Part shown: positions 3,272 to 25,153 of the stretch, piece by piece
How positions within the stretch are numbered: the first letter of the stretch is position 1
Layout of the letters: each line of letters begins with the position of its first letter
IMG/VR virus record: IMGVR_UViG_3300005555_000004
Location: 1-25,153 of that record
Length of the DNA: 25,153 nucleotides
Origin: a virus
Strand: one strand, 5' to 3'
Notes under the pieces: generated by a model
Database searches by the model: none
What the model was told of the DNA's origin: nothing
The model's input: only the letters and a program-made list of their open reading frames with translations
Position numbers and translations under genes: made by a program

Positions 3272-4591
3272 CTAGTTGTAGAAGCTGAGCACATCCCCAA
3301 CAGGGATGACCGGCATGGCGTTAGTATTGATCTTGTCGATGATGCTGTTGAAGTCTGTCTGACTGATCGTGGACGTATCCGTGGGTGAGCCAGTACTCAC
3401 CTTATGGAAGGTGAGTATGAGCCACGTCTGATTAGTCTTGGCCAGATCCAGATCACCGGTAGTGGCTGTCGTCAGGTTGGTTGGAGAGTAACCACCGGAG
3501 AAGCTGGAGATGGAGGATATGGATCTCAGCCTGAACGGGTCAGCCGGAGGGAAGGTCTCCTTGGTTTTGCTATTGGTGGTCCTCGCGTACCTGAAGTACT
3601 TCTGAACGATGTCGGTAGTACTGAACCCATCACTCGTGGTCCCGTACTGTCCGAGTGGATAGGCCGTGCCATCCCCTCCCCGCCACCCGTCAGAGACGGT
3701 GTATCCACGCATGGTGGCCAGGTCTGCATCCAACTGATTAGCAGTGAGGCCGGTGTAGGTGACGCTGTGATCGGCATCAGTGCTTGCGTGAGAGGCTATC
3801 TCCCAGCCCATGCGATCCTGTAGGTCGCGCAGCTCCTTCTCGCTCAGACGGCCGCTGGTGCCCACCAGATCCCTGATGGTGTAGATGCTGGCGGGGTAGC
3901 CATACAGGTCAAGCCGGGGCTTTCCGTTATCGAAGGCACTCTGCCAGCAGTCGTCGAAGCAGATGCTCACGACGCCATTGGGGAAGGCTGCCGATGCGTC
4001 AGAGATGAGCTCCACGCTCTGGTAGTGCGCAGTAACCGGGGCCGTACCATCATCAGTAACCTGAAGCCTTATGTCGGTCAGGCCGGAACGCGTAGGCGTT
4101 CCGGAGGTGGTGGCATCATGGAAGTTGAGGGTGACGGTAAGCCACTGTCCAGAGATGATGAAGTTCGACCCGACAGCTCCGCCCTGAATTATCCACTTGT
4201 AGTTGTTGGCAAAGGAAGAGGTGCCGAGGAACAGGTTCAGGCCCACCATGTGCGTGATGTCGTCAACCTTCAGGCGAAGTCGTATAACCTTGCCCGTCGT
4301 GTCGAAGGCAGATCCAGCAGTCTTGCTTACGTTAGCCGCTGCGCCCGTACCACCAGTGGTGATCTTGCAGGCCTGAGTGCCGAGTATGAAGTCGGTTGTG
4401 TCATTGGCCACGAATGTGGATCCAGCGTTGTTCACGAACCCGTGACCACTCTGGAAATTAGTCAGGATAGAGGTGGGCTGCCGCCATTGCGGCAGCCGCC
4501 GGATAGGAGGGTTGGTCATTGCTGTTGGATCCACCGCAAACTGTGTGTACGGACCAATGCCGATCATTCCATTGCTTGGAGCTACCATCAT
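3272..4591 (-). CDS. Tail spike with polysaccharide deacetylase (NodB-type) domain
   Basis: 439 residues from ATG 4591 (a second ATG follows at 4588). A purine-rich AAGGGGGG lies right in front, which suits the second ATG slightly better. Residues about 25-195 form a beta-sandwich, probably a carbohydrate-binding or trimerising part. Residues about 205-435 show the NodB polysaccharide deacetylase pattern: VVSICFDDC (D213, D214), EIASHASTDADH with H268 and H275 as likely metal ligands, a WRGGDG loop, and a late LTFHKVS carrying the usual C-terminal catalytic His. Family members remove acetyl groups from N-acetylglucosamine-containing or other acetylated glycans using a divalent metal. On a phage spike it would trim host surface polysaccharide during adsorption. 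The His spacing is wider than the common HxxxH, so activity is likely but not certain. Confidence 0.85.
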   Translation of the reverse strand: MMVAPSNGMIGIGPYTQFAVDPTAMTNPPIRRLPQWRQPTSILTNFQSGHGFVNNAGSTFVANDTTDFILGTQACKITTGGTGAAANVSKTAGSAFDTTGKVIRLRLKVDDITHMVGLNLFLGTSSFANNYKWIIQGGAVGSNFIISGQWLTVTLNFHDATTSGTPTRSGLTDIRLQVTDDGTAPVTAHYQSVELISDASAAFPNGVVSICFDDCWQSAFDNGKPRLDLYGYPASIYTIRDLVGTSGRLSEKELRDLQDRMGWEIASHASTDADHSVTYTGLTANQLDADLATMRGYTVSDGWRGGDGTAYPLGQYGTTSDGFSTTDIVQKYFRYARTTNSKTKETFPPADPFRLRSISSISSFSGGYSPTNLTTATTGDLDLAKTNQTWLILTFHKVSTGSPTDTSTISQTDFNSIIDKINTNAMPVIPVGDVLSFYN

Positions 4592-4653: not shown

Positions 4654-4864
4654 CGGTGAGCCCAATGACGCCAACCTTCTCCCACGGTACGAGCACAACC
4701 TCAGTCTGGGGAGCGACGTGCATGTCCCAGCGGAACTTGATGAACCGGTCGTCATAGTCAAGAACCTCCAGACCAGTAAGGGTCCGTCCGCCAATGTCGA
4801 CATTGACGATCTTCCCGATCTTAAGCAGACCGGGCTGGTCTGCGATCTTCGGCTTCGGGGGCAT
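4643..4864 (-). CDS. Hypothetical 73-residue protein, possible SH3/Sm-like barrel
   Basis: ATG 4864 with AGGAGT about 8 nt upstream. After a basic, Pro-rich start (MPPKPKIADQPG), residues about 15-70 read as a small five-strand barrel: KIGKIVNVDIGGRTLTGLEVLDYDDRFIKFRWD followed by EVVLVPWEKVGVIGL. The order of strand, Gly-containing turn, long bent strand and a closing V-P-W-x-x-V recalls SH3-like or Sm-like folds, but I cannot place it in a family. It lies 11 nt after the preceding gene and overlaps a possible 21-codon ORF. No enzyme motif is present. Confidence 0.68.
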   Translation of the reverse strand: MPPKPKIADQPGLLKIGKIVNVDIGGRTLTGLEVLDYDDRFIKFRWDMHVAPQTEVVLVPWEKVGVIGLTDER

Positions 4865-4875
4865 GGGCGTTACTC

Positions 4876-5142
4876 CTAGTCGTGGTACTTCGGTCCGAAG
4901 TGCGTGGTATAGATTCCCTGCGCGTGAGAATCATGGCTTGAGCCGAGAGGAGCTTCCTCATGCTTGTCCATGACTCGGAAGAGGCCAGATTCAAGAATGC
5001 CCTTCTCGTTGTGCTCGATGTTCGTGGTGCGACCGCCAGGGCCAGCAACGTCCATGGGGTCATAGTCTTCCCGGTCCTCATGGGCGGGCTTGAACAGATC
5101 CATGGTGGGTTCGTGCGTAACATCAATCTTCTGGTGAGACAT
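4876..5142 (-). CDS. Hypothetical acidic/His-rich 88-residue protein
   Basis: I take ATG 5142, two nt after the stop of the basic 67-residue gene, with AAGGGGAA at good distance. A GTG at 5148 in the same frame sits too close to the ribosome site. The product (MSHQKIDVTHEPTMDLFKP...) is rich in Asp, Glu and His (HEDREDYDPMD, HNEKG, SSHDSHAQGIYTTHFGPKYHD), looks largely unfolded or extended and has no recognisable motif. The strongly acidic N-terminal half contrasts with the very basic protein encoded just upstream. Whether the two pair is untested inference. Confidence 0.65.
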   Translation of the reverse strand: MSHQKIDVTHEPTMDLFKPAHEDREDYDPMDVAGPGGRTTNIEHNEKGILESGLFRVMDKHEEAPLGSSHDSHAQGIYTTHFGPKYHD

Positions 5143-5144
5143 GG

Positions 5145-5348
5145 TCACTTCCCCTTAGCTGCGTCGCTACGGCCCTTGGCTGACAGCTTGGCCATCTTGG
5201 CGGCACCATACTTCTTGCGCCCCACAGCGGCTGCTACAGCAGCCGGATTACGGGCACCTGACTTCTTGGCTGCGGCTTCAACCGCAGCAAACCGACCGCC
5301 AGCACCAAGCTTGGCCTTCGGGTTAGGCTTAGCCTTCTTGGCTGCCAT
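5145..5348 (-). CDS. Small basic Lys/Ala-rich protein (possible nucleoid-type virion protein)
   Basis: 67 residues, ATG 5348 preceded by AGGAGGAGC. About a quarter of the residues are Lys or Arg and nearly a third Ala: MAAKKAKPNPKAKLGAGG, then FAAVEAAAKKSGARNPAAVAAAVGRKKYG and KMAKLSAKGRSDAAKGK. The core NPxAVAAxxGRKKYGxxKMxxLSAxGR is a pattern I remember from small proteins near structural genes in many phages, where function is unknown. Composition suits binding to DNA or another polyanion, with short amphipathic helices. It sits between a fibre-like gene (8 nt) and an acidic protein gene. A packaged DNA-condensing or assembly role is an inference. Confidence 0.75.
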   Translation of the reverse strand: MAAKKAKPNPKAKLGAGGRFAAVEAAAKKSGARNPAAVAAAVGRKKYGAAKMAKLSAKGRSDAAKGK

Positions 5349-5356
5349 TGCTCCTC

Positions 5357-5908
5357 CTAGGACTGCTCTATCAGCAGCCAGGCAACCGTGCTGGTGTCCG
5401 TGCCGCTGGAACTGTTGATGGTAAAGCTGACGCCATTGCTCCTCGCGGAGGACAGATGGCCGACCGTTCCACCGGTCGTCTCGCGGGAGAGGAAGATCCT
5501 CGTGTTGGCGGTAACGCTGTTGTTGGTCACGGTCACTGTCCCTGCAGCCAGTGTGGCAACGCCCATTCGGGCGTTGGTTCCCGACTTGATCTGAATGCCG
5601 CCACCCAGAGTTCCGAAGTTAAGGCCATCCTTGGCGCCAGAGAACACATTCCACTGGCCTGAAGACTGGCCTGCGTTGCAGGCCAGGTATCCATTGACGG
5701 TGGCGTTAGTGTTGACCGTAAGGTTGGTGTTGATTGTGACGTCACCAGTGAAGGTGTCGCCAGACTTCGAAGCCTTGCCTGCGATCTGGGATGTGTTGGT
5801 AGCTATGTTCGTAGTGTTCGCCGCGATCCGGGTATCCTGATCGGTGAACGCAGCATTGACGGGAACATCCCAGTTCAGTGTCCCCGCTGGAATCTGTGCG
5901 TAAGTCAC
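5357..5908 (-). CDS. Fibre-like virion protein
   Basis: 183 residues from GTG 5908, which directly follows the TAA of the preceding gene, with GGAGGG just upstream. The N-terminus (MTYAQIPAGTLNWDVPVNAAF) suits a virion-binding tip. Residues about 27-45 (TRIAANTTNIATNTSQIAGK) form a heptad-like Asn/Thr/Ile coiled coil. KSGDTFTGDVTINTNLTVN is the common fibre repeat found at fibre-shaft junctions. The C-terminal about 80 residues (TVTVTNNSVTANTRIFL, GGTVGHLSS, VSFTINSSSGTDTSTVAWLL) match a beta domain I know from phage head or tail fibre tips. It is therefore likely a short trimeric fibre. Confidence 0.78.
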   Translation of the reverse strand: MTYAQIPAGTLNWDVPVNAAFTDQDTRIAANTTNIATNTSQIAGKASKSGDTFTGDVTINTNLTVNTNATVNGYLACNAGQSSGQWNVFSGAKDGLNFGTLGGGIQIKSGTNARMGVATLAAGTVTVTNNSVTANTRIFLSRETTGGTVGHLSSARSNGVSFTINSSSGTDTSTVAWLLIEQS

Positions 5909-6914: not shown

Positions 6915-7925
6915 TTACGCGTACGGGCGAGCCGAAGAGGTGGTCTGAGCCACGATCATAGACTCGGGACGGTACAGGGACCAGCCAGCAACGCCGTACC
7001 AGCCAAGCGGCTGGAAGCGAGTCAGCTTGTCAACGACCGGACCGCGAACCGTGTGGAACTCCTCAGCAACAGCCTCAGCAAGAGCCTGCTGGCCAGTGAA
7101 GTACGTGTTGTACACACGGGCCTGGTTGGCGCCAGCGCCAGCACCAGACTGGACGTTCTGCGCACGAGGAGTCTCGATGTAGCAGGCACCCTCGTACTCT
7201 CCGATCTCCGCAGCCCAGATGTTGCCAGCAGCAGAGTAGTTGTGCGGGTCACGCCAAGCCGCAGCACCGGTCTCACGGCGCAGGTCGAAGCTGACCTGCG
7301 GGTGGATGTACGCAGTGTAGTAGCTGCCCTTGTTCGGGTGAACCTTGTTCGTCCGGAGCTGAGTCGTAGCGAAGCGAGCCATGTTCGAGGAGAAGACAGA
7401 GTTACCGTTGTCGGTCGGGCCAGCATTACCGACCGAGGTGAGGGCAACCGGGTTGGTCGGCGTAGATCCGAAGCCGTAGCCGAGGGCACCTGAAGTACCG
7501 TCACGGCGAAGGGTCTGCGTGCCACCCGCGAGAACATTCTGAACCAGAAGGTCAACAGAGTCGACCAGGTTCCACGCCACCTGGTTAACCAGACCGGCAG
7601 TAACGTCGGTGAAGCTGAACAGGTCAAGCTTGTTCGAAACGAGGATCGCGTTACCGTACTCGTTGAGAGTCACGGAAACAGTGGTCGGGTTACCGGCCGC
7701 AACGGCGTCCGGGTCAACCAGTTCGTTAAGCGGCGTAACCTGCTGAACGAGGTCCTGGTAGATCTCGAACGTGACAGACGAGCCGGGCATGGCCTGCTGC
7801 ACAGGCCGCTTGTCCGCTACCATTCGGAACATGGGCTGAGCACGCAGTGCGAACTCAAGGGCCCGGTCGAAGGCAGTCTGGACAAGGTTGGCCATGGCAG
7901 AAGTGCCGGTAAAGGCGTTAGCCAT
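6915..7925 (-). CDS. Major capsid protein
   Basis: 336 residues. Two ATGs stand in tandem (7928 and 7925) after CTAAAGGAGTGA; the second has the better spacing. The sequence MANAFTGTSAMANLVQTAFDRALEFALRAQPMF, then a long beta-rich body (PGSSVTFEIYQDL, NPTTVSVTLNEYGNAILVSNKLDLFSFTDV) with helix SVDLLVQNVL, and later AWRDPHNYSAAGNIWAAEIGEYEG, is the pattern of actinophage major capsid proteins with the HK97-type fold. Length and position directly after scaffold agree, as does the strong terminator behind it, as expected for the most abundant virion protein. Scaffold stop to capsid start is 19 nt. Confidence 0.92.
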   Translation of the reverse strand: MANAFTGTSAMANLVQTAFDRALEFALRAQPMFRMVADKRPVQQAMPGSSVTFEIYQDLVQQVTPLNELVDPDAVAAGNPTTVSVTLNEYGNAILVSNKLDLFSFTDVTAGLVNQVAWNLVDSVDLLVQNVLAGGTQTLRRDGTSGALGYGFGSTPTNPVALTSVGNAGPTDNGNSVFSSNMARFATTQLRTNKVHPNKGSYYTAYIHPQVSFDLRRETGAAAWRDPHNYSAAGNIWAAEIGEYEGACYIETPRAQNVQSGAGAGANQARVYNTYFTGQQALAEAVAEEFHTVRGPVVDKLTRFQPLGWYGVAGWSLYRPESMIVAQTTSSARPYA

Positions 7926-7944
7926 CATTCACTCCTTTAGGAAG

Positions 7945-8433
7945 TCAGCCCATGCGCTGTGCATTCTGCATTGCAGCGATGAGCTCTGAGAGGTTGTTAG
8001 CGCTGCCGACAGCGGCACCAGCAGCTTCCAGGTTCCCCATCGGAACGCCGGTCTGCCCTGCCTCGGTCATACGCTGGTACTGAGCCTGCATGGACGCAGG
8101 CAGTGCCGGTTCAACCGGCTGTTCGGCAACGGGCGGGGTTCCGCCCTGGTTGCTACCGAAGACGCCTCGCATGGTGTCAACCCATGCCTTGGCCTTCTCC
8201 GGATCTGCGGGCCCCTGGTACACATCCTGTGCACCGGGAACGCCCAGGGACTCAAAGACAGTGGCCATCTTCGACTTAGTCTGCTCTTCCAGGAAGCTCG
8301 TCAGCTTCGAGTTGAGCTCATCGTTCTGTCGCTTCATAGCCTCGTACGCCTGGCGGAGAGCCTTCGGCCCTGACAGTTCGGTGTTGTCGCCAGTCTCCGT
8401 AGCGTCGTTCTCTTCGTAACCCCACTGGTTCAT
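7945..8433 (-). CDS. Capsid scaffolding protein
   Basis: 162 residues. I choose ATG 8433 because AGGGAGGG lies 5-6 nt upstream; an in-frame ATG at 8496 has no ribosome site and would run through a strong hairpin. The order is typical of scaffolds: an acidic flexible start (NQWGYEENDATETGD), a helical coiled coil (ALRQAYEAMKRQNDELNSKLTSFLEEQTKSKMATVFESLG), a Pro-rich low-complexity middle (GGTPPVAEQPVEPALPA), and a C-terminal helical capsid-binding part (LSELIAAMQNAQRMG). It would guide assembly of the major capsid protein encoded next and leave before packaging. Confidence 0.85.
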   Translation of the reverse strand: MNQWGYEENDATETGDNTELSGPKALRQAYEAMKRQNDELNSKLTSFLEEQTKSKMATVFESLGVPGAQDVYQGPADPEKAKAWVDTMRGVFGSNQGGTPPVAEQPVEPALPASMQAQYQRMTEAGQTGVPMGNLEAAGAAVGSANNLSELIAAMQNAQRMG

Positions 8434-8466
8434 TCGAACCCTCCCTAAGGTGTGCATGCCAAACAT

Positions 8467-8486
8467 CCCGGGCTGGGGAGCCCGGG
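8467..8486 (-). other. GC hairpin in the scaffold/capsid mRNA leader
   Basis: A perfect 8-bp inverted repeat CCCGGGCT/AGCCCGGG closes a 4-nt loop, 34 nt upstream of the scaffold start. On the minus strand it is followed by ATGTTTGG, only a weak T-run, so it is more likely an mRNA-stabilising or processing element than a full terminator. Confidence 0.6.
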
Positions 8487-8525
8487 TGCCGCTCATGCTG
8501 ATTAAGTGAATGCCGGTCTTCTACT

Positions 8526-8550
8526 GACATGGGGCCGGTCGATCCATGTC
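8526..8550 (-). other. Hairpin following the tRNA-like element
   Basis: Seven-bp stem GACATGG/CCATGTC with an 11-nt loop, lying 4 nt past the tRNA-like element on the minus strand. No U-tract follows. It may shield the 5' end of a processed scaffold/capsid mRNA. Confidence 0.45.
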
Positions 8551-8554
8551 GAGT

Positions 8555-8602
8555 GGGCGGGCAGGAATCGAACCTGCCCTAGCTCCCTACTGAGCTCCGC
8601 CC
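8555..8602 (-). other. tRNA-like element without an anticodon arm
   Basis: Read on the minus strand, 48 nt fold as three tRNA arms. Acceptor: GGGCGG (8602-8597) pairs perfectly with CCGCCC (8560-8555). D arm: GCTC/GAGC around AGTAGG (8595-8582), matching the AGCTCAGT..GG..GAGC tRNA consensus. T arm: GCAGG/CCTGC around TTCGATT (8577-8561), with the invariant TTCRA. The acceptor strand stacks directly on the T stem as in a tRNA, but the anticodon arm and variable loop are missing: the D arm joins the T arm through four nt (TAGG). There is no CCA end. The 5' part encodes the last residues of the coiled-coil protein and contains its TAG stop. It cannot decode; it may be recognised by RNase P or RNase Z, or be a tRNA-derived remnant. 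Confidence 0.6.
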
Positions 8603-9759
8603 TGCTGGCCAAGGCCAGCTCTTGCACCGCCGGTGGCGCCACTGAAGGCGCCACGCTCCTGCGAGAGGAGCTTGCCCTTCTTGGCTGTTGCTCCAGCCTC
8701 TCCCTCGAACACCGACTGCTCGGCAGTCCTCTGAGTCCACTGGTCACCGTAGATCTGACCCAGAGTCTTGAGCGTATCCATCTCCCCCGCAATCTGCTGA
8801 TAGCCAGCCTGGGCTTGCTGCTGAGATATGCCAGCAGTGGCAAGCTGTTCAGAGTAAGACTGATCGAAAGCCAGACCCTGATGCAGTGCCTCTGCTCCGA
8901 TCGCCGCTGTAGCGGCGCTCTTCTGGAGGTGAGGCAACGCCTTGTTCGGATCAAGGAAATAAGCAGTCATGTCGCTGTCAGAGATGCCCATCTGGTTCAG
9001 GGCCTTGCGATAGTCAGGGTTTGCAAGCGTGGTCGCTTGCGTTGCCAGATCTACGCGGGACTGAATCTCCGAGGGACTGATGTTCTTGCCGATGAAGTCC
9101 ACGAAGTCAGAGTGCTGATCGTAGAAACCGGCAGGCAGCCCAGCCTGTCGCATGATCTGCTCGTAGCTAGCTTCAGTGGCAAGATACTCTGCGGGGGAAA
9201 GGACGGGCAGGCCCATCTTCTTGCGCTCTTCATTCCCCGCAAACCTCTGCTTGTACTCCGGGGTGTCCTGAAGCAGGATCGAGATCGTGTCGCCAGAGTA
9301 TCCATTCTTGACGTAGTCGAAGATCTTCCCGGCGAGCGAACTCAGGCCATACGACTTGAACAGGGCACTGATTGCCGTAAAGGCATCCCTGTCTGCTCCC
9401 TTGAGGAGCTTCTCGTACTGTCCCGTACTGGTGTAGTACTTGGTAGTGAGGTCAGACTTGCGCTTGTCGATGCTGGTTATCTGCCCAGTCAGTGACTTCT
9501 GCTGAGCCTGGAGCATCTTGAGCCGCTGCTGGCTCCCCTTGTCCTTGCGCCCCTGAAGGACCTTGATCTGAGCCTGCATAAGGTTGAGCTGCCTTGATGT
9601 CTGCTGTCGCTGACGGTCCATCTGCTGAGTCTGCCACTTGTACTCAGCCTCAGTGATGGTCACAGGCATCTTGGCGGTCCTGCTAGCCCGACTCATTGGT
9701 GAGTCGCTGGGCCCCCACCGCTTCGCGGCTTCCCTTGCTCTCTCTACTGGTGTCGCCAT
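8587..9759 (-). CDS. Coiled-coil virion core-like protein
   Basis: 390 residues, ATG 9759 after CTAAGGAGAGAC. Residues about 35-105 are a long Gln/Lys-rich coiled coil (YKWQTQQMDRQRQQTSRQLN, QQRLKMLQAQQKSLTGQI). Residues about 125-240 carry a repeat-type motif known from actinophage virion proteins: FKSYGLSSLAGKIFDYVKNG, DTPEYKQRFAGNEERKKMGL, LSPAEYLATEASYEQIMRQAGLPAGFYD, then NISPSEIQSRVDLA. The C-terminus is helical, ending in Gly/Ala/Gln-rich sequence. The YG...G...TPEYK element resembles the YG...GWTP...TWWK element of the next two genes upstream, so these proteins probably share a fold. There is no enzyme domain. It probably acts as an internal core or tail-associated protein. Confidence 0.7.
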   Translation of the reverse strand: MATPVERAREAAKRWGPSDSPMSRASRTAKMPVTITEAEYKWQTQQMDRQRQQTSRQLNLMQAQIKVLQGRKDKGSQQRLKMLQAQQKSLTGQITSIDKRKSDLTTKYYTSTGQYEKLLKGADRDAFTAISALFKSYGLSSLAGKIFDYVKNGYSGDTISILLQDTPEYKQRFAGNEERKKMGLPVLSPAEYLATEASYEQIMRQAGLPAGFYDQHSDFVDFIGKNISPSEIQSRVDLATQATTLANPDYRKALNQMGISDSDMTAYFLDPNKALPHLQKSAATAAIGAEALHQGLAFDQSYSEQLATAGISQQQAQAGYQQIAGEMDTLKTLGQIYGDQWTQRTAEQSVFEGEAGATAKKGKLLSQERGAFSGATGGARAGLGQQGGAQ

Positions 9760-9767
9760 GTCTCTCC

Positions 9768-11024
9768 TTAGAACTTAAGGCCGAAGTCTGACAGCACCTG
9801 ATGGGCTACCTGCATAATGCTGTTCTGGGCATTCTGTGTCTTACGCCAGCGAGGATCATTTCTCAGATCATTCTCGAACTGCCAAAGCGGGGTGGTGGAG
9901 ATCTTCCCCCCAGGATCCTTGGAACCCTGAAGGGCCTTCTTGATCGTCGGATTGAACAGGTTGACGCTGCCCCCGGGCAGCTCTAGGATCTGCGCCATCG
10001 ATTGCATGTACGGAGAAGCGATGTCAGCCACAGTCTGGCCACCCTCGATCTGCTTCGAGTACTGGGGGAACATCGCCTTAGCCTTCTTCTGCAACTCGCT
10101 CTTGTAGTCCTGAGAAGTAGCAATGCCACGCACAACATTACGAGACTTATCTGCATACCAGTCACCAGACATGGTGACACCCATGGAGTATGCGTACTGG
10201 TGAAGCTCATCCCAGACTTCCCCGCCCTGACCCTGATGCTTGTCTCCCGCGAAGTACACGTACTGACCAAGAAAGTAACGAGCCTGAGACTCATCCCACC
10301 CCTTGGCCACCATGTTGTAAGCGGCCTGGTCCATCTTCTTGCGGGTGAACGCAGACTCGACGATGCCGAGCTGGTTGCCCATCTGCCTCATCTTGATCTT
10401 AGCCTGATCAAGCTCCTGCTTGGCTGTGGCTGGATCGGTGTACTTCTTAGTCAGATAGTCTTTCTCGGTCTGACTGTGAGTCTTCCACCAGGTAGTTCCC
10501 TGAAGCTCCGCCTGGAACTTGGCTGGAGTCCAGCCCCCAGAGACGGCATTCTTGAAGAGCTTCTTCAGCTCGGGGTTAGCATTAAGGAAGTCGGAGGTAA
10601 ATCCGTAACTGGCAGCCAGCTCCTTGTCACTCAGCTTGGGCTGAGTGGTCTGAAAGCCTCCATCGCTCGAAGTGTTAGTGATATCGGCTCCAGAGCCACC
10701 GTAGTACTGCTGATAGGCGCCACTGTTGTACGTGGACCAGGGGCCCCAGTGGGCCCCTCCTCCCGACATCTTGTACGCCACCCTGGCGTTAGTCAGGGGA
10801 TCGAACAGATCGTCATTGCTGGACAGTCCGTACTGACGCCTGCGCTCGGGGCCCATGCCTCCGAGCATGTTGATCTGGAACAGGCCGTAGGAGTTGTCTC
10901 CGGTACTGGCGTTCGTGTTGTGGGCTGATGCATTGCCTGACGACTCAGCCATGGCGATGGCGTAAGCCATCTTCAGGCCGTTGCCAGTAAATCCAGCCTG
11001 ACGAAGGATGCTCATAAGATCCAT
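9768..11024 (-). CDS. Virion lytic transglycosylase (SLT domain) with core-protein body
   Basis: 418 residues, ATG 11024 with AAGGAGAAGTC upstream. Residues 1-110 are an SLT/lysozyme-like domain: catalytic Glu27 in AYAIAMAESSGN, then SYGLFQIN (45-52), GPERRRQYG and NARVAYKMSGGGAHWGPWSTY. Such enzymes cleave peptidoglycan glycan strands between MurNAc and GlcNAc. The remaining about 300 residues (ELAASYGFTSDFLNANPELKKLF..GGWTPAKFQAELQGTTWWK, SPYMQSMAQILELPGGS, LRNDPRWRKTQ) are paralogous to the body of the preceding gene. It has no signal peptide, so it is probably a virion part that opens the wall during genome entry rather than at lysis. Confidence 0.87.
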   Translation of the reverse strand: MDLMSILRQAGFTGNGLKMAYAIAMAESSGNASAHNTNASTGDNSYGLFQINMLGGMGPERRRQYGLSSNDDLFDPLTNARVAYKMSGGGAHWGPWSTYNSGAYQQYYGGSGADITNTSSDGGFQTTQPKLSDKELAASYGFTSDFLNANPELKKLFKNAVSGGWTPAKFQAELQGTTWWKTHSQTEKDYLTKKYTDPATAKQELDQAKIKMRQMGNQLGIVESAFTRKKMDQAAYNMVAKGWDESQARYFLGQYVYFAGDKHQGQGGEVWDELHQYAYSMGVTMSGDWYADKSRNVVRGIATSQDYKSELQKKAKAMFPQYSKQIEGGQTVADIASPYMQSMAQILELPGGSVNLFNPTIKKALQGSKDPGGKISTTPLWQFENDLRNDPRWRKTQNAQNSIMQVAHQVLSDFGLKF

Positions 11025-11033
11025 GACTTCTCC

Positions 11034-12329
11034 TTACGCCATCAGGCCCATATCCTTGAGCACCTTTACTCCGCTGTTCATTACCTGATCCTGCGCTGCC
11101 TGCGTCTTACGCCAGCGAGGATCGTTCTTCAGCGATGCCTCGAAGTCTGTGAGGGACATACCTGTAGGCTTGCCCTGAGGGTCGAGCCCATTAAGGGCTC
11201 GCCTGATCGTAGGATCCTTCAGATTGATCGATGTGTACGGAAGTTCCAGATCCTTGGACATCTGCTGGATGTACGGGGAGGCGATGTCCATCATGGTATC
11301 GCCGCCCTTGAGCTGTTCCGAGTAGGCGGGATACATCCCCATGGCCTGTTCGGTGATCTGATCCTTGAAGTCCTGGGGAGTGGCGAGCTTTCTGGCAATA
11401 AGTTGAGCCTGGTTCTTGATGGACTGTTTATCCATGTCGATACCCTGGTTGTACGCGAACTGTCTGATGTCATGCTCGTACTGACCGGCAGCGCCCGTAA
11501 GGGTGCTGCCGTTGTCCTGGAACTTGATGTACCGACCCAGCGTGTCCCGGATAAGATCCTCATCCATGTTGGTGGTGAGGGCTTTCTCCGCTATGCTCCG
11601 AAGCTTATTGTGCGGGATAGAGGCACCCATCTCCCCAGCGAGCTGCTGGATCTGAACGGTGATCGCATCCATCTTCGCGTTGTACGTGGCAGGGTCTGTA
11701 GCCTTCTCCATTTGCGCCTGCTTCATGGAGGTCGAGTTCTCTTTCCACCACTTCGTGTCTCCGAGGTGAGCTTGGAACTGGGCTGGGGTCCAGCCGTTCT
11801 CAACCGCCTGAGAGAAAACTCCACGAAGCTCCTTGTTGGAGTTCAAGAAGCTGTACGCCCACCCGTACTCAGCAGCCAGCTCCTCAGGAGATAGCTGTTT
11901 GGTATCGGTGGGATTCCAGTCGCCAGCGCTGCCACCACCCTGGACACCGGCGGACCTTCGTCCGCCCATGAATGTTCCCTGGTAGTAGCCGCCTGTCATG
12001 TCAGTAACCTCCACGCCCTTGCCGGGGCGTGGGGCATGGATCATCTTGCCGTTACCGATATAGATGCCGACATGGTCAGCGCCCTTATGGCTGGGATCAG
12101 TGTCGAAGAAGACAAGGTCGCCAGCCTGAAGCTGGTCCATTCCGACGCCCTTGCCTTCACCGATCTGTGAGTAGGTGGTGCGGCTGAGGTTGATGCCGAA
12201 GTGCTTGTACACCTGCTGCACAAACCCGGAGCAGTCAACTCCAGAGGTGAGGTTGGTGCCTCCCCACTGGTAGGGCGTCCCTATCCACTGCTGAGCCCAG
12301 GACGCAATGTCCGCTCCGTTAGCTGCCAT
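11034..12329 (-). CDS. Virion NlpC/P60 peptidase with core-protein body
   Basis: 431 residues. Its ATG shares one base with the upstream stop (TAATG), with AGGGGTGG ahead. Residues 1-125 are NlpC/P60: catalytic Cys33 in GVDCSGF, QAGDLVFFD, His86 in DHVGIYIGNG and a third polar residue H98 in MIHAPRPG. The family cuts gamma-D-Glu-to-diamino-acid bonds in peptidoglycan stems. After a Gly-rich hinge (about 128-140) comes a body parallel to the transglycosylase protein: ELAAEYGWAYSFLNSNKELRGVF, GWTPAQFQAHLGDTKWWK, SPYIQQMSKDLELPYTS and LKNDPRWRKTQAAQ. With its paralogue it would cut both peptide and glycan parts of the wall during infection. Confidence 0.88.
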   Translation of the reverse strand: MAANGADIASWAQQWIGTPYQWGGTNLTSGVDCSGFVQQVYKHFGINLSRTTYSQIGEGKGVGMDQLQAGDLVFFDTDPSHKGADHVGIYIGNGKMIHAPRPGKGVEVTDMTGGYYQGTFMGGRRSAGVQGGGSAGDWNPTDTKQLSPEELAAEYGWAYSFLNSNKELRGVFSQAVENGWTPAQFQAHLGDTKWWKENSTSMKQAQMEKATDPATYNAKMDAITVQIQQLAGEMGASIPHNKLRSIAEKALTTNMDEDLIRDTLGRYIKFQDNGSTLTGAAGQYEHDIRQFAYNQGIDMDKQSIKNQAQLIARKLATPQDFKDQITEQAMGMYPAYSEQLKGGDTMMDIASPYIQQMSKDLELPYTSINLKDPTIRRALNGLDPQGKPTGMSLTDFEASLKNDPRWRKTQAAQDQVMNSGVKVLKDMGLMA

Positions 12330-22412: not shown

Positions 22413-24358
22413 TCCCCTGATCCTCCCACCATGGACGCCTGACTCAGGTAGTCAAGATCGATGGTGACTCGCTTGGACTTGTCTCTCTCGGACTGGTACT
22501 CATTCTCGATGTGGAACACAGACTCCACATCGTTGACAAGCTCTCGCGCTCTAGTCTCCGCGAACCACAAGGCCATGACAGTATCCTGCTTGGCCTTGGT
22601 CTGAGGGAACCAAGTGGTGAGCTGTTCCACGAGAGCCTTGATGCCCTCGTTCTGTGAGCGGGAGGGGAGCCGGATGAGGCCCCTGCCTTCCTTGGCTCCG
22701 TCAAAGAGCATGCTCATGGATGCGACGCCGAAGTCGGCGTCGTTCTTGTTGCTGCCAGTGAAGTGTTCCTTCAGGATCGTGCCACGGCTGCCGAGGAAGT
22801 TTCTCAGGTCACGGTTCTGTGTGACCATCAGGTTCATCGCGTTCTTCTCGATGACCCACTCGTGCATGTGGTACTTCACTGTCCAGTCTTTGATTTTGTT
22901 GAAGAGGTCGTCTGGCTTCTGGTTTCCGGCGGTCCATACGTCCAGTACGTACCGCACTCCAGACATTCGATCAACGCCGAGGACCAGGGCTGCCGCGTAC
23001 CCTGTGATAGCAGGGTCAAAGCCCCCCACGACATATAGGCCATCCATTCCGTGAGGACGGTGTCCGGGTGCTCCTGAGGACATGAGTCCGGCTGCCCGCA
23101 TTCCGTCAATCGATGCAGCAACCTTGTCTGCCGGGAAGATCGCATCCTCAACCACCTGCTCCTGCTGGTAGACCATCTTCCAGTTCTGCGGAGAGCTGGT
23201 GGCTCTCCGCCTGGCTAGCGACTTTCCTGAGTGCCAGGGATAGAGACCTTCCGCGTTTGCTTCCACCAGCTTTCTTGCTCCAAGCGACACTGGGGGGCGG
23301 TTGGTCCAGGGCGCGAGAACCATCCAGTCATCAGGGTTCTCGGCGAACTCAAGAACAGCAGGTTGGGTGAGGTAAGTCCAGGGAGATTCCTCGTCTTGTC
23401 CGTACCACTCAGGCTTCTGGATTTCGGAGTAGAGCTCAACGGGGGCAAGTCGTGTTCCGACAAGGAGAAGAGTTCCGCCAGGGTAGGAGAGCCGGTTGAT
23501 GACTTCTCGCTGGATCCAGTCGATCTGCTTCTCGAACTCATGGGCGTTCTTTCCTGTCACGGTGTCGTCGAGGATGATCAGGTCAGCACGGTTACCGTAG
23601 ATCTGCCCGTTCATGCCGAGAGCCTGAACAGTAGGCGTAGGCTCACCGGAGTCACGGGCTTCAGCGTTCACGTAGATCGAGTCAGCCGTCCAGCTAGCAC
23701 TGTTGGCATCGAAGCCACCTTCAGGAGCAAAGTCGATCTGAAGTTGACGGTAGGCCTGGTTCGCTCCAGCGAGGCGATCCTTAATCGCCCTGAGGAACCT
23801 CTTCGCCATCTCCTGAGTCTGGGAGACGATGATGATGCGGATGTTCGGATCCTGGCAGATCCTCCATGTCGTGTAGTTCACAGTGATCGTCGTGGACTTG
23901 GCGTGCTCCGGAGGGGTGTTCACGATGATCATGCCAGGATCTCCCGGCTTGTAGATCTGGTTCTCGTGGAGGTCTCTAGGTCGACGTCCCTCAAGGACGT
24001 CGTACCACTGAAGCTGATGCCAGAACAGTGTGGTGTCCAAGTACTTCTTACAGAACTCAGGGAAGTCAGGCATGTTCTTGCGGATCGCCTCAGATCCACC
24101 AGTAGCTATCAGCCTGAGTCGGTCGTAAGCAGCCCTGAAGTCTCCATCGGACTTGCGGTAGTAGGTGACGTTCTGTTCGGTGATGTCCATGTCACGACAG
24201 GCCTGAGCTACGCTCTGGCCCTTCTGCATGTACTTGAGGATCGTCTCCTTCTTCTTCGCTGTCGACAGGTTCGTCTTAGGGCCTCGCTTCCGGGCGAGGC
24301 TCCCATCAGTGTTCTGCTTGTACTGACGACCTTCTTCATCCACGTAAATTTTTGCCAC
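22397..24358 (-). CDS. terL: Terminase large subunit with N-terminal helix-turn-helix
   Basis: 653 residues from GTG 24358, with AAGGGGC about 9 nt upstream. Residues about 35-75 (KKETILKYMQKGQSVAQACRDMDITEQNVTYYRKSDGDFRAAYDR) are a helix-turn-helix of the small-terminase or transposase type. The ATPase follows: Walker A-like TPPEHAKST near 146-153 and Walker B IILDD near 262-266, with RIIIVSQTQEMAKRF and TLLLVGTRLAP between and after. The RNase H-like nuclease has FDPAITGY (near 447) and WVIEKNAMN (near 502) with acidic metal ligands. It cuts and pumps DNA into the capsid through the portal. No separate small subunit is seen in this window, so the N-terminal domain may recognise the packaging site. 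Confidence 0.92.
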   Translation of the reverse strand: MAKIYVDEEGRQYKQNTDGSLARKRGPKTNLSTAKKKETILKYMQKGQSVAQACRDMDITEQNVTYYRKSDGDFRAAYDRLRLIATGGSEAIRKNMPDFPEFCKKYLDTTLFWHQLQWYDVLEGRRPRDLHENQIYKPGDPGMIIVNTPPEHAKSTTITVNYTTWRICQDPNIRIIIVSQTQEMAKRFLRAIKDRLAGANQAYRQLQIDFAPEGGFDANSASWTADSIYVNAEARDSGEPTPTVQALGMNGQIYGNRADLIILDDTVTGKNAHEFEKQIDWIQREVINRLSYPGGTLLLVGTRLAPVELYSEIQKPEWYGQDEESPWTYLTQPAVLEFAENPDDWMVLAPWTNRPPVSLGARKLVEANAEGLYPWHSGKSLARRRATSSPQNWKMVYQQEQVVEDAIFPADKVAASIDGMRAAGLMSSGAPGHRPHGMDGLYVVGGFDPAITGYAAALVLGVDRMSGVRYVLDVWTAGNQKPDDLFNKIKDWTVKYHMHEWVIEKNAMNLMVTQNRDLRNFLGSRGTILKEHFTGSNKNDADFGVASMSMLFDGAKEGRGLIRLPSRSQNEGIKALVEQLTTWFPQTKAKQDTVMALWFAETRARELVNDVESVFHIENEYQSERDKSKRVTIDLDYLSQASMVGGSGEWWSS

Positions 24359-24410
24359 GATCGTTGTGCCCCTTATAAGTACCTTAGAAGTTCAGACAGG
24401 ACCTTGGGAC

Positions 24411-24432
24411 CAACTGACCTGTCGGTCAGTTG
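24411..24432. repeat. Hairpin, perfect 9-bp inverted repeat
   Basis: CAACTGACC and GGTCAGTTG enclose TGTC. It lies about 53 bp upstream of the terminase GTG. No U-tract follows on either strand, so it is an operator or RNA-leader candidate rather than a terminator. Confidence 0.6.
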
Positions 24433-24491
24433 ATCTACGCGGGGAAGATACCGCAAGGGCAGAAGACTCCTCTTAAGAGTATGTAGGAGTC

Positions 24492-24510
24492 CTTGTAGGA
24501 TCCTACGAAG
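24492..24510. repeat. Near-perfect 19-bp palindrome
   Basis: The 12-bp core GTAGGATCCTAC is perfectly palindromic and extends to 19 bp with one mismatched pair. It lies against the next hairpin and may be a dimeric repressor site or part of a compound RNA fold. Confidence 0.5.
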
Positions 24511-24533
24511 AGCACCCCCTTCAGGGGGGTGCT
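24511..24533. repeat. GC hairpin, 9-bp stem
   Basis: AGCACCCCC and GGGGGTGCT enclose TTCAG. It is strong enough to end transcription but has no U-tract on either strand. U-less terminators have been proposed in actinobacteria, so this remains open. Confidence 0.55.
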
Positions 24534-24539
24534 TCTAGT

Positions 24540-24568
24540 AAGAGGTTACAAGGAGGTAACAACCTCTT
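24540..24568. repeat. Nested inverted repeats
   Basis: Outer arms AAGAGGTT/AACCTCTT contain inner arms GTTAC/GTAAC around AAGGAG. On the plus strand the loop shows a ribosome-site-like AAGGAGG, but no start codon with an open frame follows. Confidence 0.45.
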
Positions 24569-24586
24569 AGAAGCTACCTAGTAGGT

Positions 24587-24606
24587 CAGCCCCCTGAGGG
24601 GGGCTG
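24587..24606. repeat. GC hairpin, 8-bp stem
   Basis: CAGCCCCC and GGGGGCTG enclose TGAG. It has the same build as the hairpin at 24511, again without a U-tract. Both are flanked on the plus strand by TCTAG. Confidence 0.55.
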
Positions 24607-24767
24607 TCTAGAAGGACTTCCCCAAGGTACTTCTAAGTACTTACTACTACTTATATAGAGACCCGTGCTGAGCGAGTTTGAGCTAGGTCGGACCAGTTTC
24701 ATTGCCAAGACTTTACCAACTACTACTGTGTGTAGCTACATAGGGGTAGCTTGGTGTACGGAGAGCT

Positions 24768-24800
24768 ACTTAGGTGGGCCTAAGTATGCTACATATGTAG
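24768..24800. repeat. Two adjacent palindromes
   Basis: ACTTAGG/CCTAAGT around TGGG (24768-24785) is followed three bases later by the perfect 12-bp palindrome CTACATATGTAG (24789-24800). These look like protein-binding sites more than terminators. Confidence 0.45.
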
Positions 24801-24851
24801 TGGGTTACACACCCACCCACCCAGCGCCAGTTTAAAACCCCCGGGTCGGCA

Positions 24852-24932
24852 TGTCCTGGTTCGTCCAGCATGTCCGATCGAGCCCTGCTGCCTGCTCTGT
24901 CCAGCTTCGCCCCGCGTTGTCCTGCTTCGTCC
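24852..24932. repeat. Array of 15-bp degenerate direct repeats
   Basis: The unit TGTCCWGSTTCGYCC occurs at 24852-24866, 24898-24912 and 24918-24932, with a diverged copy at 24871-24885. Start-to-start distances are 19, 27 and 20 bp, so two neighbouring pairs are about two helical turns apart. Confidence 0.6.
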
Positions 24933-25010
24933 CGCCCAGATGAGCAGGCTCGCCCTCAGGTGAGCGTGTGTGTACACAGCCGCCTCGATGCGTATGGGTC
25001 AGCCTCGTGG

Positions 25011-25050
25011 TGCATCACTATGCATCCTGGTGCATGACCATGCAGATGCT
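25011..25050. repeat. 10-bp phased iterons
   Basis: TGCAT starts at exactly 25011, 25021 and 25031, with TGCAG at 25041: four units one helical turn apart. Further TGCAG and TGCAC units lie at 25073 and 25091. Confidence 0.65.
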
Positions 25051-25086
25051 AGGCCAGATGTCCAGATATCCTTGCAGATGCTAGGC
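25041..25086. repeat. 14-bp exact direct repeat pair
   Basis: TGCAGATGCTAGGC occurs at 25041-25054 and 25073-25086. The second copy covers the -35 position of the candidate rightward promoter. Confidence 0.65.
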
Positions 25087-25126
25087 AATGTGCACGATAT
25101 GCCTGGATAATCGTCGACATCTGGCC
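25052..25126. repeat. Separated 11-bp inverted repeat
   Basis: GGCCAGATGTC (25052-25062) and GACATCTGGCC (25116-25126) are exact reverse complements 53 bp apart, flanking the candidate promoter. This could be a looping operator pair. Confidence 0.55.
25082..25111 (+). promoter_or_regulatory. Candidate rightward sigma-70-like promoter
   Basis: TAGGCA (four of six to TTGACA) stands 18 bp from GATAAT (five of six to TATAAT). A ribosome-site-like GGCGGAGGAC follows at the window edge (25144-25153). The -35 overlaps a direct repeat, as a repressor-controlled promoter would. The gene it would serve is outside the window. Confidence 0.35.
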
Positions 25127-25153
25127 AAAAGTCTGATGATTGAGGCGGAGGAC

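Follow-up and report, generated by a model that had tools for sequence, protein, structure and literature searches.

What does a tRNA-like structure without an anticodon arm do across the stop codon of a late gene, directly ahead of the genes for scaffold and capsid? The question arises in the window, the whole stretch of 25,153 nucleotides analyzed here, whose gene order implies transcription toward lower coordinates from the core proteins through the coiled-coil gene (9759→8587) to the scaffold and capsid genes. The relevant features are as follows.

8587..9759, minus strand: coiled-coil, internal-core-like gene without a Pfam match, whose last five codons and stop enter the element
8587..8589, minus strand: TAG stop of the coiled-coil gene
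8555..8602, minus strand: anticodon-less tRNA-like element, read 8602→8555, 48 nt
8602-8597, minus strand: acceptor 5′ strand of the element
8595-8582, minus strand: D arm
8577-8561, minus strand: T arm
8560-8555, minus strand: acceptor 3′ strand
8554, minus strand: discriminator A
8439..8446, minus strand: Shine-Dalgarno sequence of the scaffold gene, AGGGAGGG, partly complementary to the CCCC hairpin loop of the leader
7945..8433, minus strand: scaffold gene, corrected start, N-terminus MNQWGYEEN...
6915..7928, minus strand: major capsid protein gene (PF13252, Phage_capsid_3), relative of the Beephvirinae major capsid proteins

The scaffold ATG was placed at 8433-8431 behind AGGGAGGG and not at the ORF-finder ATG at 8496, as both the Shine-Dalgarno sequence and the MNQWGYEEN terminus match those of relatives. 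What separates the element from the scaffold gene is therefore a non-coding leader. Neither a promoter nor an intrinsic terminator was detected near the element, the promoter scan being of the sigma-70 type, which does not cover Streptomyces promoters.

The element in the window

On the minus strand, the acceptor strand GGGCGG is followed by an A, the D arm (GCTC, AGTAGG, GAGC), the four nucleotides TAGG, the T arm (GCAGG, TTCGATT, CCTGC), the second acceptor strand CCGCCC, the discriminator A and then CTC. The geometry proposed in the preliminary description, with a perfect 6-bp acceptor, D and T arms in order, neither anticodon arm nor CCA, and a gene end inside the element, was confirmed. 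All six acceptor pairs form, the D stem is GCTC/GAGC, the T arm has 5 bp around the TTCGATT loop, the tail is ACU, and the TAG at 8589-8587 lies in the D loop with the last five codons running in. The element is confirmed as real and not a chance arrangement, since its fold has a z of -3.35, with 0/200 shuffles equally stable, and since a covariance model derived from the anticodon-less elements of 16 relatives, the window excluded, matched 8553-8602 with E=5e-7, the next best match having E=1.6.

Standard annotation passes it over. ARAGORN returned 0 tRNA and 0 tmRNA on the window, and Rfam at gathering thresholds gave nothing for the element, the tRNA family (RF00005) remaining below threshold and the best sub-threshold match being tRNA-Sec (22 bits, E 0.03). 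Its acceptor and T stem lie 19 nt apart, which leaves no cloverleaf with an anticodon arm, and the element is not a tRNA gene. A tmRNA in the window was rejected on this same distance between the arms and on the negative ARAGORN result. In contrast to tmRNA, whose tRNA-like domain likewise combines an acceptor and a T arm without an anticodon arm, the element shows a D arm of the tRNA type, with no tag-coding and no pseudoknot region. Its acceptor and T stems amount to 11 bp with a 7-nt T loop, TTCGATT, the layout of an RNase P minihelix substrate (about 12 coaxial acceptor/T base pairs and a 7-nt T loop).

The gap and its contents in relatives

Relatives were collected by their capsid gene, which yielded 80 IMG/VR loci and cultured Streptomyces phages (Beephvirinae), and further scans extended the set to 266 loci. 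The cultured phages Percastrophe, Dennebes, Abafar, JXY1, Stella and Manuel carry 14-22 annotated tRNAs in the equivalent gap. Metagenomic relatives have arrays of 22-24 tRNAs (L025, L072), one to three tRNAs, or an element invisible to ARAGORN; when read by hand, most ARAGORN-negative gaps contained a T arm and an acceptor with the same end point. ARAGORN found a tRNA in 86 of the 128 distinct gap-plus-leader sequences, and for 85 of these 86 its end falls between -1 and +4 nt relative to the start of the leader; about 31 of the remaining 42 have an acceptor/T tRNA-like that beats shuffles and ends at the same point. The distance from element to leader stays within about 5 nt across relatives. 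L098, L223, L236 and L240 were kept out of the tRNA-like class, their pairing being no better than that of shuffles. Just 5′ of the leader, the minus strand of L240 has an odd element without a T-loop consensus, made of two hairpins and a stem of 8 bp that resembles an acceptor (GGGCAGGT/ACCTGTCC-ACC).

A complete tRNA still precedes the scaffold gene, within the gap, in L207, L208, L210 and L211 (53-55% capsid identity). In an outer clade of contigs (L221, L225, L230, L234, L237 and L252) and in ct2KA10 (L386), the leader is present without a tRNA-like and the stop of the upstream gene abuts it; to judge from this arrangement, these phages must use another route to the 5′ end. The element is therefore not universal. 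In BRock, a remote Streptomyces phage whose capsid is 27% identical, neither leader nor tRNA-like was found. When a profile was run on the loci listed by the pattern scan of genome contigs, its matches surrounded the searched pattern, were partial and weak, and have the appearance of chance matches.

A capsid tree was built from 118 relatives, 109 of them in the main clade. Each of these 109 carries a tRNA or tRNA-like at the conserved boundary between coding regions, where gene order implies a single transcript, and complete loss was seen in 0/109. The tree rows without an element are a separate clade (L221, L225, L230, L234, L252) and two long-branched sequences (L223, L236). The state, tRNA or tRNA-like, changes 22 times on the tree, at least 11 changes being forced by strongly supported branches; for the strict anticodon-less class there are 19 changes, at least 8 of them forced. 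Two pairs with identical or near-identical capsids (L039 and L040; L015 and L008) differ in having a full tRNA or a minihelix. No tRNA-family match was obtained in the whole records of the window (25 kb), L062 (44.9 kb) and L020 (45.5 kb), the last two being near-complete. Frequent swapping of state, the absence of losses in the main clade and near-complete records without a tRNA match argue for selection on the acceptor/T helix, which is well supported, and not on decoding, and they argue against passive decay. It is probable that tRNAs gave rise to the element or alternate with it.

The layout, which the preliminary description had believed to be without a described case, recurs in 22 further distinct relatives: 23 distinct sequences, the window included, have an acceptor-to-T spacing too short for D and anticodon arms. 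Among 28 tRNA-like elements, the acceptor and T stems form a helix of 11-12 bp with full or near-full pairing in almost all, pairing being weaker in L069 and, in the automatic fit, in L253. Compensatory changes, proposed at the outset as a check on the gap of relatives, were found for the acceptor, whose pairing score was 161.4 against 126.0 +/- 5.1 with 3′ strands swapped and linkers re-optimised (0/300, kinship not controlled). The lineage of the window itself has no close relative that shows a compensatory change within the lineage. The sequence of the element varies from phage to phage while the structure is kept, and there is no sequence conservation beyond the tRNA consensus.

Reduction goes furthest in L049 and L203, which have exact minihelices of 7+5 bp, free of any linker and closed by a T loop of 7 nt. 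Another group (L017, L040, L062, L073, L191 and L027) shares a linker of 11-12 nt around AAYGGCATACG on differing acceptors (GGGCG/CGCCC, GGGTG/CACCC, GGACTG/CAGTCC and GGGGC/GCTCC); the GG of this linker may be a remnant of the D loop docking on the T loop. Across the 117 tRNAs and tRNA-likes, the tail is mostly RCC and less often RCT, as against ACU in the window. The covariance model from the elements of 16 relatives, R2, was built with a named structure because RNAalifold had dropped the acceptor stem (model R1), and a scan of 305 kb from relatives with R2 gave 11 matches, all in or near this gap.

Two relatives have unusual gaps. In place of a tRNA, L253 carries on its minus strand, at about 3578-3650 and directly before the leader, a domain resembling the tRNA-like domain of tmRNA (GGGGCTGAGACGGTTTCGAC...GGTTCGACTCCCTCCAGCTCCACT) without the message part. 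In L069, an open frame at about 4845-5370, with a CxxC...CxxCH pattern like that of HNH endonucleases when inspected by eye, lies between what appear to be two tRNA halves and is possibly a mobile insertion.

A conserved leader RNA

Directly 3′ of the tRNA or tRNA-like, and beginning exactly at the predicted 3′ cut of the element, lies a leader, overlooked in the preliminary description, with a pseudoknot and a stem that reaches the scaffold Shine-Dalgarno sequence.

8434..8553, minus strand: conserved leader RNA (match to model R3, made without the window, at 8437-8553, E=2e-18)
8550-8544/8532-8526, minus strand: stem P1
8538-8535 with 8516-8513, minus strand: pseudoknot, CCGG with CCGG
8498-8494/8458-8454, minus strand: stem P3, with an apical hairpin at 8486-8467 and its CCCC loop

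A profile search located the leader in 243 of the 266 loci, and most loci without it start too near the capsid gene or are chance matches of the pattern scan; a more sensitive covariance model also recovered it in L123, L249, L207, L208 and, weakly, L210. The pseudoknot occurs as CCGG/CCGG, CTGG/CCAG, CCAG/CTGG and other variants. In 72 diverse sequences that do not include the window, 92.9% of the cells of the pseudoknot and P3 were paired, against 76.6% in shuffles and 23-33% in controls with slid partners, and the covariation score was 0.402 against 0.155 in shuffles, none of 500 being as high (kinship not controlled). P1 was tested sequence by sequence because a one-base shift hides it in the linear MAFFT alignment: it has at least 5 bp in 100/100 leaders, and its mean length is 7.39 bp, as against 5.39 bp once the 3′ strands are exchanged among sequences.

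The leader appears to be undescribed. Rfam gave no family for it in the window, where the region yielded three weak matches at E<=10, none of them a ribozyme. HDV-like theta ribozymes, proposed to make the 3′ end of phage tRNAs, are likewise structured, pseudoknotted RNAs that adjoin this 3′ end (PMC10879173). Compared by hand, the topologies differ: theta ribozymes have the nested HDV double pseudoknot, whereas the covarying pairs of the leader are P1 with an H-type pseudoknot and a separate P3/hairpin. An HDV/theta ribozyme was rejected for the leader on these grounds.

A probable tRNA-derived punctuation mark and its alternatives

We consider it probable that the element is a tRNA-derived punctuation mark, at which host RNase P and/or RNase Z would cut the late transcript and free the scaffold-capsid mRNA. 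Once ribosomes have finished the coiled-coil gene and left, the element would fold as the acceptor/T (elbow) half of a tRNA. RNase P of the host would then cut its 5′ side, at 8603/8602, and/or RNase Z or a similar tRNA 3′-end machinery its 3′ side, at 8554/8553; RNase Z is hindered by an encoded CCA. Such cutting would detach the mRNA for scaffold and capsid from the message of the core proteins upstream. The RNase P cut would remove the last codons and the stop of the coiled-coil gene, and must therefore compete with translation. The freed mRNA would open with the pseudoknotted leader, which would shield the 5′ end and perhaps tune ribosome access. P1 starts 3 nt into the freed 5′ end, where it may act as a barrier to 5′→3′ exonucleases like RNase J, to judge from what is known of actinobacterial RNases. 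In relatives, a full tRNA, the last tRNA of an array or a bare minihelix would do an equal job, decoding being optional and the acceptor/T helix not.

Structure, position, compensatory conservation, the RCC tail of relatives and the conserved leader are directly supported. The processing signal advanced in the preliminary description is partly supported, in that it fits a gap that is always filled in the main clade, an acceptor/T helix preserved by compensation where the anticodon arm has repeatedly been lost, the usual RCC and a leader placed at the predicted 3′ cut; the cleavage itself, the enzymes, the protection of the 5′ end and any effect on capsid output are inferred. Minihelices and duplexes of 12 bp are substrates of RNase P (PMC11221534), and the elements described here keep these features, although the tail in the window is ACU and not ACC. 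They share with the minimal substrates of the pATSer type the coaxial helix of 11-12 bp, the T loop and, in most relatives, the 3′ RCC (PMC11221534), but those substrates are laboratory constructs, whereas the present elements look like natural, repeatedly evolved genomic versions.

Comparable processing is known elsewhere. In mitochondrial tRNA punctuation and in the t-elements of plant mitochondria, a tRNA or tRNA-like likewise lies between coding regions of one transcript and its expected excision by tRNA-processing enzymes defines mRNA ends; the present case differs in belonging to the late operon of a DNA phage, in always concerning one junction, before scaffold and capsid, in being coupled to a conserved leader, and in that cleavage is predicted. 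Host RNase P also cuts phage transcripts with tRNA or tRNA-like structures, namely M3 RNA, the P1/P7 C4 antisense RNA, T4 gene 32 mRNA and T4 tRNA dimers, none of which is described there as an anticodon-less minihelix that serves as a fixed boundary before capsid genes (PMC11143913). No phage tRNA punctuation and no anticodon-less phage tRNA-like was found in the open-access literature searched.

Codon supply or escape from tRNA-cutting defences is the usual explanation of phage tRNAs. For the 15 tRNAs of Abafar, escape from defence was offered as the explanation (PMC11536984). If selection keeps the acceptor/T helix alone at this boundary, phage tRNAs can also act as mRNA punctuation, as in mitochondria. 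We propose, tentatively, that a large group of actinophage-like podoviruses has a dedicated, translation-independent minihelix cut site before a pseudoknotted leader that protects the 5′ end, for which tRNAs and arrays would be interchangeable stand-ins, the arrays being partly mRNA-processing devices. The set provides natural minimal tRNA-likes, including the exact 7+5-bp minihelices, as well as a conserved leader RNA without an Rfam match in a large group of soil phages, and the cultured Streptomyces phages allow direct tests.

An unlikely alternative is that the tRNA-like is never cut and acts with the leader as a structural domain, be it a 5′ stabiliser, a contact for EF-Tu, a synthetase or the ribosome, or a switch for scaffold translation. 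Such a domain would fit the constant abutment of tRNA or tRNA-like and leader, the strong conservation of the leader and the apical loop (UCCCC or UCCCUAG), which is complementary to the Shine-Dalgarno sequence and can pair with it through CCCC, loop and Shine-Dalgarno covarying weakly between groups (4.09 against 3.83 in shuffles, 0/500, relatedness uncontrolled). However, full tRNAs and arrays replace the minihelix freely, a freedom easier to reconcile with excision than with a specific contact made by an uncut element, conservation does not extend beyond the tRNA consensus, and one clade has the leader without a tRNA-like.

It is rather improbable that the element is a functionless, decaying stub, left by deletion between array members in a gap where tRNA genes land. 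The preliminary description had considered such a relic, and its premise stood: relatives do carry true tRNAs and arrays in the gap (14-22 tRNAs in cultured relatives), near-identical capsids accompany either a full tRNA or a minihelix, and the D arm in the window resembles that of a normal tRNA. The element does not behave as decaying sequence, though, as the acceptor/T helix is fully or nearly fully paired and compensated in almost all reduced forms, no main-clade relative shows complete loss and the leader distance is constant within about 5 nt.

The core of an attachment or recombination site, also suggested earlier, is very improbable and found no support. tRNA genes are common attachment sites, and the tRNA content of the gap is frequently swapped. 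The cultured relative Abafar is, however, described as strictly virulent and without lysogeny genes (PMC11536984), and the sequence of the element differs among phages while its structure persists. A tRNA gene or array collapsed during assembly is hardly credible even for a metagenomic virus record whose relatives have repetitive arrays at this position, since a second IMG/VR contig (3300026334_000005) differs from the window at a single position in 14,629 matching nt, an agreement of limited weight because the contig is possibly from a related sample, and since similarly reduced elements occur in many distinct contigs and include two perfect minihelices of different sequence.

Elsewhere in the window, two neighbouring proteins encoded before the coiled-coil gene (9768-12329, minus strand) have SLT and NlpC/P60 peptidoglycan-cutting domains, consistent with internal virion ejection proteins. 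A late-gene protein at 3272-4591 on the minus strand contains a polysaccharide deacetylase domain (PF01522, E=1.4e-5) and is perhaps a receptor- or capsule-modifying tail protein. In the non-coding end region at 24350-25153 there are several inverted repeats, along with a direct repeat of 17 nt.
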